Shown here in pieces: positions 50,338-56,068 of a stretch of DNA of 64,000 nucleotides. Origin of the DNA: an uncultured Chloroflexota bacterium. Its GTDB lineage: Bacteria; Chloroflexota; UBA11872; VXNJ01. The stretch is from the NCBI GenBank assembly GCA_913043205.1, contig CAJWLF010000003.1, positions 1 through 64,000 on the forward strand, given 5' to 3'. The position numbers and the translations under genes were made by a program. The notes under the pieces are model-generated. The model was not told the DNA's origin. It did no database searches and saw nothing but the letters and a program-made list of their open reading frames with translations. How positions within the stretch are numbered: position 1 is the stretch's first letter; each line of letters opens with the position of its first letter.

Positions 50338-51276
50338 ATGAACTATCCGGAATTGCTCAGCATGGGTGAGTGTATGGTTGAACTCGTAACATCTGACCCT
50401 ATCAAGGATGCTACCTCTTACAGCAGGGCATACGGTGGCGACACCCTTAACGTAGCAGTTATGGCTGCACGACTTGGAAGCAAAGCAGGTTACTTAACCA
50501 ACGTGGGCGACGATCCTTTCGGAGACTATCTGATAGAAGCATTTGTGAGTCAAGACATTGATGTGAGCGCCATTTCACGTGTGCCTCAACCTAATGGCTT
50601 GTATCTAATGGCTACTCTCAAGTCAGGTGAGAGAGAGGTGGTGTACTACAGGACGGACAGTGCTGCTTCAACCATCAATCCGGATAAATTGCCAAGAGAA
50701 CACTTGATCAATACAAAAATCTTTCATTTCAGCAGTATTTCGCAAGCCTTGTCATCCTCGACTAGGGAATCTGCAACACTGGCTGCCTCAATGGTTCTAA
50801 AAGAAGGAGGGCAAGTTAGTTATGACCTGAATTTCCGGTCCTCATTGTGGATGAATAATGACCCTAGAGTCGTAGTTCAAGAAGCAATTGCACTTGCCAA
50901 CATAGTGTTTGTTAGCTGGCCGGAAGATCAACCAGTTTTTCCAAACATGGAAATCTCAGAAATCATCGATTACCTAAAGCAACTAGGCCCCGAAATAATA
51001 GTTGTCAGAGAAGGGGAGCTAGGGTCATTGGTTCTAGCAGACAACCATGAACAACGAATACCCGCAAACGAAGTTCCTGTAGTGGATACGATTGGAGCAG
51101 GGGATGCATACACAGGAGCATTCTTACACTCACTTCTTAACGGCCTTGATCCTTTTGAGTCTGGATTAGTTGCAACCACAGCAGCTGGACTTTCTGTACA
51201 AGGCCCCGGGACTGTGATGTCGTATCCATCGCTCGACCAAGTACGTAATAACTTAGCCAAAAGCGTTGTTCTGTGA
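50338..51276 (+). CDS. PfkB-family sugar kinase, 2-keto-3-deoxygluconate kinase-like
   Basis: 312 aa. The N-terminus (SMGECMVELVT, YGGDTLNVAVMAARLG) and C-terminal DTIGAGDAYTGAFLHSLL (anion hole and catalytic Asp) are intact. The N-terminal pattern is that of KdgK enzymes, which phosphorylate 2-keto-3-deoxygluconate; fructokinase is an alternative. AAGGA lies 8 bases before the ATG. The stop overlaps the next gene's GTG start by 4 bases (GTGA), so the two are coupled. Confidence 0.87.
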   Translation: MNYPELLSMGECMVELVTSDPIKDATSYSRAYGGDTLNVAVMAARLGSKAGYLTNVGDDPFGDYLIEAFVSQDIDVSAISRVPQPNGLYLMATLKSGEREVVYYRTDSAASTINPDKLPREHLINTKIFHFSSISQALSSSTRESATLAASMVLKEGGQVSYDLNFRSSLWMNNDPRVVVQEAIALANIVFVSWPEDQPVFPNMEISEIIDYLKQLGPEIIVVREGELGSLVLADNHEQRIPANEVPVVDTIGAGDAYTGAFLHSLLNGLDPFESGLVATTAAGLSVQGPGTVMSYPSLDQVRNNLAKSVVL

Positions 51277-52370
51277 CTAACTCATCTAACGGCGTTGATC
51301 GAGATGAAATTGCAGCTGAGTTTAATAACGGAAGTGGCATATATAGCTCTAAGTTAGACACTACGGATTTCAATTCGCTTGTAGTTAGCCTGTTATCAAT
51401 AATCAGTTCTACCGGTCTCACAGGATTAAATCATCATCAGTCACTGGGCAAAATAACTACCATCGATGCGATGATGTCACTTCCCGGGCTATTTATCACA
51501 ACGGGCAATGCCTCACTAATGAAATCGTTGTTGATCGAAGAATCGAGGCGAGTTAGAAAAGGCCAATTACCAATATCGCTTTCCCAGCGGACAGACGCCA
51601 CACTAGACAAATCTTCGGAAGCAACTTTATGGCTACTCGAAGCTATAGCAACCTATATTTCATCGACAGGAGACCAATCGATACTGCAAGAAGTATTGAC
51701 GCCCATGGTTTTGGCTATAGATCGTCAAATCGCTAGCAACAACAACGATATTGGCCTAGATCCCTCAGACGGGCTACTTTCTTTGAAATGCGAAGACCTG
51801 GGTTCTCGAAAGCCTATACGGCTAAATTCATTGTGGTACTCATGCCTAAGAAACCTCGAGGCCTGGCTTAAAACTGCAGGTTGGAGCGATCGAAAAGTAG
51901 CTGATTTGGCGGATTTGTCAGCCATATCATTCAGGGAGAAATTCTGGGTAGCCAGGTCTGGTTATCTAGCTAGCGAGACTAATCAGCCAAATCCTAACGA
52001 ACCCGACTCGGATCAACTCTTTGCCCTAGCACTTACACGACCACTAATTCACGGTAAATTGGCTCGGTCGGTAGTATCTCATGTCCGATCATCACTACTA
52101 ACTCCGTATGGACTCAGGCGTGGCAACTCAGTACTACCATGGATGTTGTCACCATTTGTCTCAGCACATCTTCATGCATATGGATCCAAAAATAGTATCG
52201 AACACGTACTAGACGCACTAATACAAATACCCAGCTGCACTAACCATCATCTGCGTAAATCCTTGCCCTTGAATACAACATCGGAATCCGGTGTGCCCAA
52301 CCACCCCAACTCACTGCACCTCCCCAGCATTGCATCTATTCTGCAAGCAGACCAACTATTGTCCTACTGA
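51273..52370 (+). CDS. Degenerate glycogen-debranching-enzyme-like (GDE_C/GH133 type) protein
   Basis: 365 aa, GTG start overlapping the sugar kinase stop. It keeps the toroid skeleton of the amylo-alpha-1,6-glucosidase family: AMMSLPGLFITTGN, EATLWLLEAIATYISSTGD, LDPSDGLLSL, RLNSLWYSCLRNLEAW, FREKFW, TPYGLR and VLPWMLSPF. The catalytic pieces are missing: WGRD before SLPGL is TTID, the TWMDAK block between DGLL and INALWYN is deleted, and the YHQGTVWPW segment is shortened to GNSVLPW. Family enzymes are much longer, with an N-terminal sandwich that is absent here. Catalysis is unlikely; a carbohydrate-binding role is possible. Confidence 0.7.
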   Translation: MTNSSNGVDRDEIAAEFNNGSGIYSSKLDTTDFNSLVVSLLSIISSTGLTGLNHHQSLGKITTIDAMMSLPGLFITTGNASLMKSLLIEESRRVRKGQLPISLSQRTDATLDKSSEATLWLLEAIATYISSTGDQSILQEVLTPMVLAIDRQIASNNNDIGLDPSDGLLSLKCEDLGSRKPIRLNSLWYSCLRNLEAWLKTAGWSDRKVADLADLSAISFREKFWVARSGYLASETNQPNPNEPDSDQLFALALTRPLIHGKLARSVVSHVRSSLLTPYGLRRGNSVLPWMLSPFVSAHLHAYGSKNSIEHVLDALIQIPSCTNHHLRKSLPLNTTSESGVPNHPNSLHLPSIASILQADQLLSY

Positions 52371-52377
52371 CTACAAT

Positions 52378-53190
52378 TTACCTGATTCCTCTCACTCCAC
52401 TCAGAACGTGTATCACATCGAGAAGAGCCTGTCTCTCATCATCGCTAAGCCTCTCCTCAGAAAATCGATAATCAGCCTTGCGCACAACTTCCGCCAAATG
52501 AAAGTCAAGTTGATCCCAATGAGTTATTTGTACATCTATCAACAACTCAATTAAATCCGGATCAACCGCAGCATCTATGGTCTTCGTTAAATGAGGTAGG
52601 CAAAGGGCAGATCCGGACTTAAACCGTTCTTGTAAAAGACTATCTTGCCAATGAGTAATTACTGTAGAAACATATCGAATTTCCGCATTGTCAATTTCAG
52701 TACATACAGGGCAAGATTTCGTTTGACTAAACACTACATTATTTTCAGAAGTCCGAAGCCATTTTCTACCAAATAATCGTATTGCACGAGGGATGAAAGA
52801 TTTCCAGTTCGATGGTTCAGCATTCTGCAATTCTCGCCGGATCTTGCGCAAAATATCCGAGTAGGTAAACGCAACTGCCAACGGACTAAATTGCGTAGAC
52901 ATTAGTTGATGCGCGTGCACATTACAGAACCCATTAGATTCCCTGATCCGAGAACGAATGTCTACATCAGTGACGTTATCACCGCAATAGACATCAATAT
53001 ACCGACGAGAGATCCTGTCAGACAGAAAGCACAACGAACATCCGTCACGCCCCATCGCCTCATACAATTCAGCAAAACTGGGTTCGCGAGTTGAAAACCT
53101 CGGATCGGACCAGTCAATATCCAACCGCCCAACATGGTGCTTGGATTTACATTTAGCTCTGTGGTATTCGGATGATTCGGTCATATACAA
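52378..53190 (-). CDS. DUF6062-like Cys-rich protein
   Basis: 270 aa. Two similar halves each start with a CxxC pair: CSLCFLSDRISRRYIDVY followed by GFCNVHAHQL, and CPVCTEIDNAEIRYVST followed by ALCLPHLTKT. This CxxC...C-x-x-H pattern suggests one metal or redox site per half and matches DUF6062 proteins known from Chloroflexota and Firmicutes. Function unknown. No signal peptide, so cytoplasmic. It is divergent from the Lon-like gene and convergent with the debranching relative, whose stop is 7 bases away. Confidence 0.75.
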   Translation of the reverse strand: MYMTESSEYHRAKCKSKHHVGRLDIDWSDPRFSTREPSFAELYEAMGRDGCSLCFLSDRISRRYIDVYCGDNVTDVDIRSRIRESNGFCNVHAHQLMSTQFSPLAVAFTYSDILRKIRRELQNAEPSNWKSFIPRAIRLFGRKWLRTSENNVVFSQTKSCPVCTEIDNAEIRYVSTVITHWQDSLLQERFKSGSALCLPHLTKTIDAAVDPDLIELLIDVQITHWDQLDFHLAEVVRKADYRFSEERLSDDERQALLDVIHVLSGVRGIR

Positions 53191-53325: not shown

Positions 53326-54918
53326 TTGATCTTCATTATGATAGTTGAAGAACTTAGTTCCCAGATTAATGAATTAGCCATCCCAGAGCACACTCGCAAG
53401 GTGGTGGATCTTCATCTCGAATTTCTTCGAGATTGTCCCGATAATTCCCTAGACACAATCACCACCATTGATTTCTTGAGCCAGGTAGCACAGCTACCTT
53501 GGAAATCCTCCGATAAGTCTGTAAACCCGAAGAATATATCTGATTTGCCCACAGTAAACATAGGCCAATATGTACCTGACTATATGCACCGACATTTGAC
53601 AGATTTTATAACCACCTACCCCATCTCCGAACCCAAGACTCTGGACAAAATACCCGTTCTAGTAGGCCCTCCGGGAACTGGGAAACGCACACTAACAGAA
53701 CGCATTGCAGGCGTATTGAATATGCCTGTACAAGAAATTGATCTTGGATTCATGACACACGACGGCCACTTATTTGGAACACCAGGTGACTCATCATTAG
53801 CAGAGTCCGGAGCGTTGATCAAAGCGATTATGGATTCAGGTCGCCCAGACACAGTAATTGTTCTTCGCAACCTTGGATTGGCCGTGGAACAGTGGCCAGA
53901 TCGTGGACTAGACCTTTTACGGTTGCTCACAAATTATAAATCCAGACAGAATTTTCGTGACCGATTTCTAAACATAGAGTTTGACCTTACCGATGTTTTG
54001 TTTGTTATTCATCTGAATTCAACCGACGAATTACCAGAAATCATATGTGATCAAACATGTCTCATAGACTGCCCAGGATACACATCTGATATGCGAAAAC
54101 AATTAGCAATTACGTCCATCATGCCCAAAATATTAGACACGTATGGCTTAGACTCCACCGAGTTAATGCTTGGCGAAGACGCAGCTGGAGATTTGGTTAG
54201 AGATTATGCAAAAGAACCAGGACTTTCTTCGTTAGAAAGAATTTTGCACAAACTAGTAAGACAACTTGCAGCCAAACAAGCACGAAATGAGGATTGGCAA
54301 GGAACTATAGACTCAACGATACTTAGAAATATGCTTGGGTCGCCTTCCGACAGATGTGTTGCTATAAACACGGCTCCAAGGCCCGGAGTGAGTAAAGGAA
54401 TCGTACTGTCAAAGACAGGAGCTTCAGTAGAACCATTAGAAACAGTAGTCATCCCCGGTGAAAAATATTTTTCACTGATCGACAGTCGAAACACTGCATT
54501 GTACCGAGTAACCGACACTGCTTATCATTTTGTAAGGTCACGTATGACAGAGTTGGATATATCCGCCCGACAGCTATATGAGTACGGATATCAGATCGGT
54601 CACCAGATTCATCCAGCAAATCAAGACTCTACTGTTATGGGACTAGCCATGCTGGTATCAATAGTATCCATCTTGAGAGACCGTTCTGTAGATCCAGAGT
54701 TGGCCTTGGTGGGAGAATTGACACTAAATGGCCAATTACTCGGGGTCACGCACCTAAATCATCGTCTTCTTGCAGCAGAACGCGCTGGTATTCGTAGAAT
54801 AATTTTACCTAAAGCTAATAGCGACGCAGTCGCCGAATTGCCACAAGATTTACAGAGCCAGATAAGTCTGGTGTTAGTGAATGACGTAGAACAAGCTATT
54901 CGGGTTGCTCTGCAATAG
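53326..54918 (+). CDS. Degenerate Lon-family protein (AAA+ and Lon-P folds, catalytic residues lost)
   Basis: 530 aa from TTG 53326 (ATG 53338 is an alternative; numbering from the TTG). It lacks the N-terminal LON domain but keeps the linker helix (FLSQVAQLPW), an AAA+ module and a Lon-type proteolytic fold to the C-terminus. Walker A (GPPGTGK, ~114-120) is intact. Walker B is VIVLRNLG where Lon has FLLDEID, the arginine finger DRM is DQT, and the sensor-2 Arg is Ser (GLSSLER). In the protease fold Ser435 (PANQDS) fits the catalytic Ser, but the Lys position is Arg480 (HLNHRLLAA versus GLKEKLLAA). It is probably a non-proteolytic, non-hydrolysing scaffold or chaperone-like protein. Confidence 0.85.
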   Translation: MIFIMIVEELSSQINELAIPEHTRKVVDLHLEFLRDCPDNSLDTITTIDFLSQVAQLPWKSSDKSVNPKNISDLPTVNIGQYVPDYMHRHLTDFITTYPISEPKTLDKIPVLVGPPGTGKRTLTERIAGVLNMPVQEIDLGFMTHDGHLFGTPGDSSLAESGALIKAIMDSGRPDTVIVLRNLGLAVEQWPDRGLDLLRLLTNYKSRQNFRDRFLNIEFDLTDVLFVIHLNSTDELPEIICDQTCLIDCPGYTSDMRKQLAITSIMPKILDTYGLDSTELMLGEDAAGDLVRDYAKEPGLSSLERILHKLVRQLAAKQARNEDWQGTIDSTILRNMLGSPSDRCVAINTAPRPGVSKGIVLSKTGASVEPLETVVIPGEKYFSLIDSRNTALYRVTDTAYHFVRSRMTELDISARQLYEYGYQIGHQIHPANQDSTVMGLAMLVSIVSILRDRSVDPELALVGELTLNGQLLGVTHLNHRLLAAERAGIRRIILPKANSDAVAELPQDLQSQISLVLVNDVEQAIRVALQ

Positions 54919-55009: not shown

Positions 55010-56068
55010 ATGTTTGGCGTAGGCGCATTTGAATTCGTCTTAGTCCTATTAATTGCAATGATTGTATTAGGACCAGACAGAATACCAGTAGCAATGCGGA
55101 CTCTCGGAAGGTGGGTCCGACAGTTACGCAAAGTAGCAGCTGATTTCCGTCAAGAATTTGATGAGGAAATCAGTATTTTGCGTGGAGAAGTTCAGGCTTT
55201 GCGCGAAGAAGCTGAACTCACCAGGGCCGAACTGCAAGAGATTCAGGACGACATAGCCCAGACAGTTGGAGAAGCACAGGGAGACTTAGAAGAAGCCGCT
55301 GACGACATTTCTGGACAGATACGTTCCACTGGACAGGCAGTATCGGGCACCCAAGAAATCACTCCTCGTCCACATGCACATAAAAACATGGACACGGGCC
55401 CAGTCACTGAAATTGAGAGCAGTTCAACATTCAGACATGATCTCGACCCCGCAGACTCAATGTTTGACGTGCTTTCAACAACTAGCAATGCCGATACAAA
55501 TTATTCCAATATTGAGCCGCCCTTCAGCCCAATAGAAACTCTAGGATGGGACAGCATTAGGCAGCTTTCTCCTTCTGGGCAGAACTTTGGCGCAATGCTG
55601 AGGCTTGTCGTTAATGACGAAACTTCAGTATTGGATGCCCGTAATTTATTAGCTCAACAAGCCGAAATAGACGCAAAACAATTAGCAGGCTTCATGAATA
55701 AAGGCCCACTAGCCGCGGCCATATGCTGGGCTGCACAAAAACAATTTTGGATGAATGCCGGCGATATAGACATCGACCAACCAGAAGATAGCACTGTAAG
55801 AATACGACTCTACAAAGATCCGTATGGATTAGACGCACGTACGGACGGACCGGCTGCGATCCTAAGTCAAACTTACGATTTGACACTCTTGGAAAAACTT
55901 GGGGTCGAAGGTGAGTTTACTGAATTGCTGTCGCATGGATCCTCTTATACTGAATTGATACTCCGCAATGCATCGACACAGAAAGATGATTCCGAACCAA
56001 ATGCAAGCGACGCTGATCTCCTATCTCCCGAAGGAACGGTTCCTACAAAAGAACCCAAACCGCGATAA
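55010..56068 (+). CDS. tatB: TatB-type twin-arginine translocase subunit with long C-terminal extension
   Basis: 352 aa, about twice a typical TatB. The N-terminus MFGVGAFEFVLVLLIAMIVL has Glu8, as in TatB, then the GPDRIPVAMRTLGRWVRQLRK hinge and amphipathic helix that match TatB closely. A coiled coil follows (~55-110), then an unstructured linker (~115-180). A further domain of ~110 residues (~185-300; WDSIRQLSPSGQNFG, DARNLLAQQAEIDAKQLAGF) is not part of TatA/TatB and is unassigned. No tatC is in the window. The start has no strong ribosome site. Confidence 0.85.
   Translation: MFGVGAFEFVLVLLIAMIVLGPDRIPVAMRTLGRWVRQLRKVAADFRQEFDEEISILRGEVQALREEAELTRAELQEIQDDIAQTVGEAQGDLEEAADDISGQIRSTGQAVSGTQEITPRPHAHKNMDTGPVTEIESSSTFRHDLDPADSMFDVLSTTSNADTNYSNIEPPFSPIETLGWDSIRQLSPSGQNFGAMLRLVVNDETSVLDARNLLAQQAEIDAKQLAGFMNKGPLAAAICWAAQKQFWMNAGDIDIDQPEDSTVRIRLYKDPYGLDARTDGPAAILSQTYDLTLLEKLGVEGEFTELLSHGSSYTELILRNASTQKDDSEPNASDADLLSPEGTVPTKEPKPR

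Follow-up and report, generated by a model that had tools for sequence, protein, structure and literature searches.

We find that a gene in the window (the 64,000-nucleotide stretch of DNA analyzed here, from a Chloroflexota MAG of 1.87 Mb) encodes a protein of Lon fold that lacks the LON N-domain. The protein represents a new branch of pseudoenzymes within a known family: it has lost its catalytic residues, while purifying selection, as estimated from relatives, acts on its frame and fold. This pseudo-Lon belongs to one ancient clade that is seen only in its own order of Chloroflexota, where it occurs in the family of the window genome (f1) and in a sister family (f2). Judging from its motifs, the motor, pore and protease of the protein are probably all inactive.

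The window protein and its motifs

The pseudo-Lon frame is intact over 530 codons, from a TTG at 53326 to 54918 on the forward strand, as are all features of the gene given below; residue numbers are counted from this TTG. The preferred start is the ATG at 53338 (53338-54918, 526 codons), from which the relatives also align, with TTG 53326 as the alternative. Four of the five f1 homologues can be aligned with the window protein over ~521-547 amino acids. Full-length identity to LonA is 23-24%, and sequence searches of the PDB match residues 7-528 to Lon. Pfam matches above cut-off are Lon_lid (54142-54291) and the protease-fold domain Lon_C (54307-54912; 1.5e-30), while the NCBIfam "lon" equivalog scores 213.7 bits, below its cut-off of 608. 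The N-terminal helical region is NTD3H-like (residues 7-59; 53344-53502); it aligns to 4ypl and 3m6a from query residue 7 and ends in a conserved LPW. The initial annotation of this DNA had described the LON N-domain as missing, and there is indeed no Pfam match to the LON substrate-binding N-domain (PF02190, LON_substr_bdg) in the window pseudo-Lon.

It had also described both folds as kept, which agrees with the Lon_lid and Lon_C matches and with an AlphaFold2 model guided by Lon sequences. The model (pLDDT 83.8, pTM 0.78) was built from an alignment in which the window protein is joined by three f1 relatives and 15 Lons from viral contigs. With four sequences only, the protease domain was poor (pLDDT 57), a problem solved by adding the viral-contig Lons. 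Against both LONP1 and E. coli Lon, the model reaches a TM of ~0.88. In a Foldseek search, Lon structures occur all through the matches listed, with TM to the query of up to 0.89. The model suggests that the pseudo-Lon sequence is compatible with a Lon fold, in a prediction that is steered by the canonical Lons in the alignment and does not imply ring formation. The ATPase-lid-protease core probably still takes a Lon-like fold.

Motifs were called from an alignment of the pseudo-Lons with 41 canonical Lons. Walker A (GPPGTGKRT, residues 114-122; 53665-53691), initially annotated as kept, is kept by half: Lys120 is present, but the almost invariant Thr that follows is Arg121. Arg occupies this position in all five f1 members, and in one of them (G001) the Walker A Lys is gone as well (GGGRRS). 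Within Walker B (53854-53871), DE is replaced by Arg181-Asn182, the arginine finger position is Gln243 (54052-54054), and the sensor-2 Arg is Ser301 (54226-54228), inside Lon_lid. Sensor-1 Asn231 (54016-54018) is kept; together with Lys120, it is all that is left of the AAA+ motifs. At the position of pore loop-1 (53776-53811; limits taken from residues 393-404 of E. coli Lon, PMC9569914), the almost invariant canonical sequence DEAEIRGHRRTYIG is gone, and the canonical GHRRTYIG is replaced by FGTPGDSSLAES.

The Ser-Lys catalytic dyad is absent from the window protein, which has Val437 (54634-54636) at the position of the Ser and Arg480 (54763-54765) at that of the Lys. Thus, the replacements initially reported in Walker B, the arginine finger, sensor-2 and the dyad Lys are all correct, and to them we add the catalytic Ser, the Walker A Thr and the pore-loop-1 sequence. 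A second Lys able to take over in the active site, which would have spoken against a dead enzyme, was sought in the alignment with canonical Lons, and none was found near the active site. It is very improbable that the protein is an active enzyme with misaligned motifs or with other residues in use, such as Ser435 or Thr436 with Arg480. These two residues do lie two and one positions before Val437, and one survey gives the dyad as S679, K/R722 (PMC2605481). However, the alignment is ungapped within the motif, the neighboring Ser and Thr are not conserved in f1, members of f1 lose Ser and Lys in differing combinations, and Walker B and sensor-2 are also gone.

The pseudo-Lons have conserved residues of their own. 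The most conserved stretch of the f1 proteins, VRSRMTELDISARQLYEYGY (54532-54591), contains the pattern SARxxxE (Ser413, Ala414, Arg415 and Glu419), which is common to f1 and f2 and rare in canonical Lons. In RDRSVDPE (54676-54699), Arg451, Asp452, Asp456 and Glu458 are conserved in pseudo-Lons only. Arg491 is likewise common to pseudo-Lons and rare in canonical Lons.

Distribution, divergence and selection

Of the 24 genomes of the order, 23 carry a pseudo-Lon orthologue; it is partial in two (G021 and G022) and otherwise runs to ~530 codons. The gene is unseen in the remaining genome, G013, because its expected place runs off the end of a contig: 402 bp separate the conserved f2 neighbor ThiF from the contig end in the direction in which the pseudo-Lon is expected. 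Among the 301 Chloroflexota genomes sampled, no member was found outside the order. Full-length order members score 632-783 bits in this set and the two partial copies 464 and 568 bits, while the best non-order match reaches 438 bits, in an 829-aa frame. A search of genome contigs with a single sequence gave no match, and one with the f1 alignment returned three Chloroflexota MAGs.

The 23 pseudo-Lon sequences fall into one fully supported clade on a stem of 1.4 changes per site, in a tree for which the program warns of long branches. The clade is independently backed by the shared residues described above, from Ser413 to Arg491. Divergence within it is high. Pairs of f1 pseudo-Lons are 38-39% identical, as against 54-61% for the full-length Lons of the same species, and the pseudo-Lons of the f2 genera g5 and g6 are only 43% identical.

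Purifying selection is evident among the relatives. Close pseudo-Lon pairs have dN/dS values (NG86) of 0.09-0.21, compared with 0.06-0.13 in two groups of active Lons, and the f1 pair G002/G004, in which the dyad is broken (Ser, Leu), has a dN/dS of 0.11. Whole-tree codon omega (IQ-TREE) is 0.03-0.08 for pseudo-Lons, and canonical Lons give 0.01-0.06 on the same trees; since branches in f1 are saturated under the codon model, these values are supportive only. All of these estimates come from relatives, as the window strain is without a close relative in the set. We found no stops or frameshifts in 21 full-length pseudo-Lon copies.

The initial annotation had argued that the gene is kept by selection, and proposed an orthologue search and a dN/dS computation as checks. 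Both bear it out: frames are intact across the order, dN/dS between close pairs is low, and the sequences group in one clade marked by conserved residues of its own. Intact enzymes among the orthologues would have pointed to a recent pseudogene in the window, but the orthologues are not of this kind. A recent pseudogene is ruled out by the distribution and dN/dS, and a frameshift or sequencing error by the orthologues. Fast evolution and the loss of many conserved residues could also mark a decaying paralogue that is heading for loss and kept by chance. We consider this most improbable, and already contradicted by the evidence in hand, given a gene that is free of stops and frameshifts, present in every testable genome of the order, constrained even in the dead-dyad pair, and equipped with family-specific invariants.

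Stepwise decay, genomic companions and possible roles

Losses in the pseudo-Lons appear to have been stepwise. The sensor-2 Arg and the pore-loop sequence are absent in every member, so we place these losses on the stem, where the LON N-domain would also have been lost. The five f1 genomes have Ser/Lys pairs of V/R, T/R, S/L (two genomes) and A/K, which amounts to four routes of dyad loss. Complete f2 sequences keep both Ser and Lys, with the exception of G008 (Ser to Ala), and Walker A is well preserved in f2 too. The initial description of a Lon relative without nearly every catalytic residue therefore holds for f1 but not for its sister family. These patterns suggest that the dyad was lost later than the stem residues, by several routes, within f1. 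Like the ATPase-dead LonC, the f2 proteins may still be able to cleave peptides, and the dyad kept in f2 suggests that peptide cleavage may have been part of the original function.

For the window protein, the loss of N-domain, pore loop, motor and protease makes a non-enzymatic role the natural reading. Such a role, also put forward in the initial annotation, is probable on sequence grounds, and retention by selection backs it. Our leading proposal, which we hold tentatively, is that the pseudo-Lon is a non-catalytic Lon-type ring that serves as a scaffold or regulatory subunit, alone or mixed with full-length Lon. The proposal leads because of the precedents of ClpR and FtsHi and the two full-length Lons of each genome checked. 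The pseudo-Lon would assemble as a ring by itself or with one of these two Lons, and the ring might regulate the active enzymes, with the conserved SARxxxE / RDxxxDxE patch as a putative contact surface. Co-occurrence with full-length Lons is the only link between pseudo-Lon and active Lons that we observed.

Close behind this proposal, on the sequence evidence, we place an independent ATP-independent line resembling LonC. Here the f2 proteins would be motor-less peptidases, and their f1 relatives would bind or hold unfolded peptides or a client without contact with active Lons. Ser and Lys are present in almost every complete f2 sequence even though g5 and g6 proteins are so divergent, and the pseudo-Lons as a whole have lost the sensor-2 Arg, the Walker B Asp and the pore-loop sequence. 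LonC itself provides the precedent, as a hexamer of Lon fold that has no ATPase activity (PMC3391209). The rapid divergence of the pseudo-Lons from the full-length Lons is as compatible with a separate role as with a shared ring. Against this reading, the surroundings of the f2 Ser (GPSAG) and the Thr and Glu of MTGE are changed, which makes activity uncertain; G008 has lost the Ser; and a protein without N-domain and pore loops has no obvious means of client uptake. A broader scenario, which we regard as speculative, adds peptidase activity in f2 to the scaffold/regulator proposal. The order would then have a third, motor-less Lon throughout, an ATP-independent peptidase in f2 and, in f1, a cleavage-less structural subunit or regulator of active Lons that acts through the new patch. 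If true, this would be the first Lon described in which both halves are dead, and living lineages would show the intermediate steps.

Every genome checked has two full-length LonA-type Lons. Those of the window genome have intact motifs, which answers the question, raised initially, of whether an active Lon is encoded elsewhere. LON domains in the window genome are found in these two proteins and in one stand-alone protein of 210 aa. Stand-alone LON-domain proteins are common in bacteria. We rejected a split Lon made up of the pseudo-Lon and the stand-alone protein, as the latter shows no specific link: it occurs through the order, G013 included.

The full-length Lons of the order vary too. 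In all six g5 genomes (G015, G007, G008, G012, G005 and G014; L145-L148, L099 and L101), the second full-length Lon has GPASG instead of GPSAG, so that the catalytic Ser is moved by one residue; the ATPase motifs and the Lys are intact. This Lon is possibly a protease-dead unfoldase, and as such a second inactivation in the same order. The second Lon of G003 (L095) has Thr for the catalytic Ser (GATAG) and is otherwise canonical. A further Lon copy (L114; G030:C21) has a scrambled Walker A (GRPARRRQDQP), likely through a frameshift, with the other motifs intact. Lon genes, many of them full-length, also occur on IMG/VR contigs of up to 437 kb (L118-L144) that are classed as viral, some of which may be misclassified host DNA.

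Gene neighbors are conserved within f1. In all five f1 genomes, the pseudo-Lon lies between a divergent DUF6062 gene (52378-53190, reverse strand, in the window) and a same-strand tatB-like gene (55010-56068, forward strand, 91 bp downstream and with a long C-terminal extension in the window). In f2 it adjoins a divergent ThiF gene, and we found no neighbor common to the f1 and f2 pseudo-Lons. The GDE-DUF6062-TatB locus is retained in two f2 genomes (G010 and G006), in which an isocitrate-dehydrogenase-like gene fills the position of the f1 pseudo-Lon; genus g5 is without DUF6062. These two loci and the DUF6062-less g5 rule out DUF6062 and TatB as order-wide functional partners. The neighbor check suggested initially thus succeeded within f1 but yielded no partner across the order: the neighbors characterize a single family and say little about pseudo-Lon function.

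Three observations concern the locus itself. The gene between DUF6062 and tatB in f2 (L158, 7228-8397; L159, 8303-9379) was named by eye as isocitrate/isopropylmalate-dehydrogenase-like. The C-terminal region of the window tatB-like protein ends in a conserved segment, RIRLYKDPYGLD..YDLTLLEKLGVEG, which is also present in f2; Pfam gives nothing for this protein beyond the TatA/B domain. The amylo-alpha-1,6-glucosidase (GDE_C) gene of the window (51273-52370) has only 365 codons, compared with at least 659 at the same locus in f1 relatives.

Comparison with known systems

The pseudo-Lon shares with LonA (MEROPS S16; E. coli, B. subtilis and human LONP1) the NTD3H-like helices, the AAA+ core, the lid and the Lon_C fold. 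It differs from LonA in being without the LON N-domain and the 5-helix part, and in the replacement of Walker B, arginine finger, sensor-2, pore-loop-1 sequence, Ser and Lys. LonC (Meiothermus MtaLonC, Thermus TTC1975) is similar in its Lon fold, dead ATPase and absence of a LonA-type N-domain. However, the Ser-Lys dyad persists in LonC (~719 aa), which cleaves unfolded proteins, whereas the f1 protein is dyad-less. LonC also forms a clade separate from LonA and has characteristic insertions downstream of the catalytic Lys, including CX3GLX(G/E), which lies between the Lys helix and the strand that follows (PMC3391209). No insertion of this type follows Arg480 when the window protein is aligned with LonA. 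The f2 members resemble LonC in principle, by an independent route.

BrxL (BREX) and RadA/Sms likewise put a Lon-like C-terminal domain to non-proteolytic use. By analogy, the pseudo-Lon could be a regulator outside any ring, whose Walker A remnant or SARxxxE patch binds nucleotide, DNA or protein; we consider this unlikely. Its protease domain is weakly but significantly similar to the RadA and BrxL profiles, the window protein keeps the sensor-1 Asn and the Walker A Lys, and the new charged residues are conserved. Nevertheless, the similarity is confined to the C-terminal domain at 51-56 bits, far under the family cut-offs, and the full-length BrxL profile (54-56 bits) matches that domain only, which places the pseudo-Lon outside that family. 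Moreover, the Walker A Lys is lost in G001, and Arg stands for the conserved Thr throughout f1.

The scaffold or regulatory subunit that we favor has its closest parallels in ClpR (plastids, cyanobacteria and apicoplasts; PMC7966870) and FtsHi (plants; PMC8197885), dead relatives of AAA+ proteases that are also kept beside active paralogues. These belong to other protease families, and the association of ClpR with active subunits is experimental, while that of the pseudo-Lon is proposed. In the open-access literature searched, we found neither a dead Lon subunit akin to the Clp and FtsH cases nor a Lon dead in both halves, although an ATPase-dead Lon (LonC) is described. The order studied here holds all states, from ATPase-degenerate with a dyad to doubly dead. 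Because these occur beside full-length Lons of the same genomes, both the order in which an AAA+ protease loses its activities and the use of a bare ring become directly testable.
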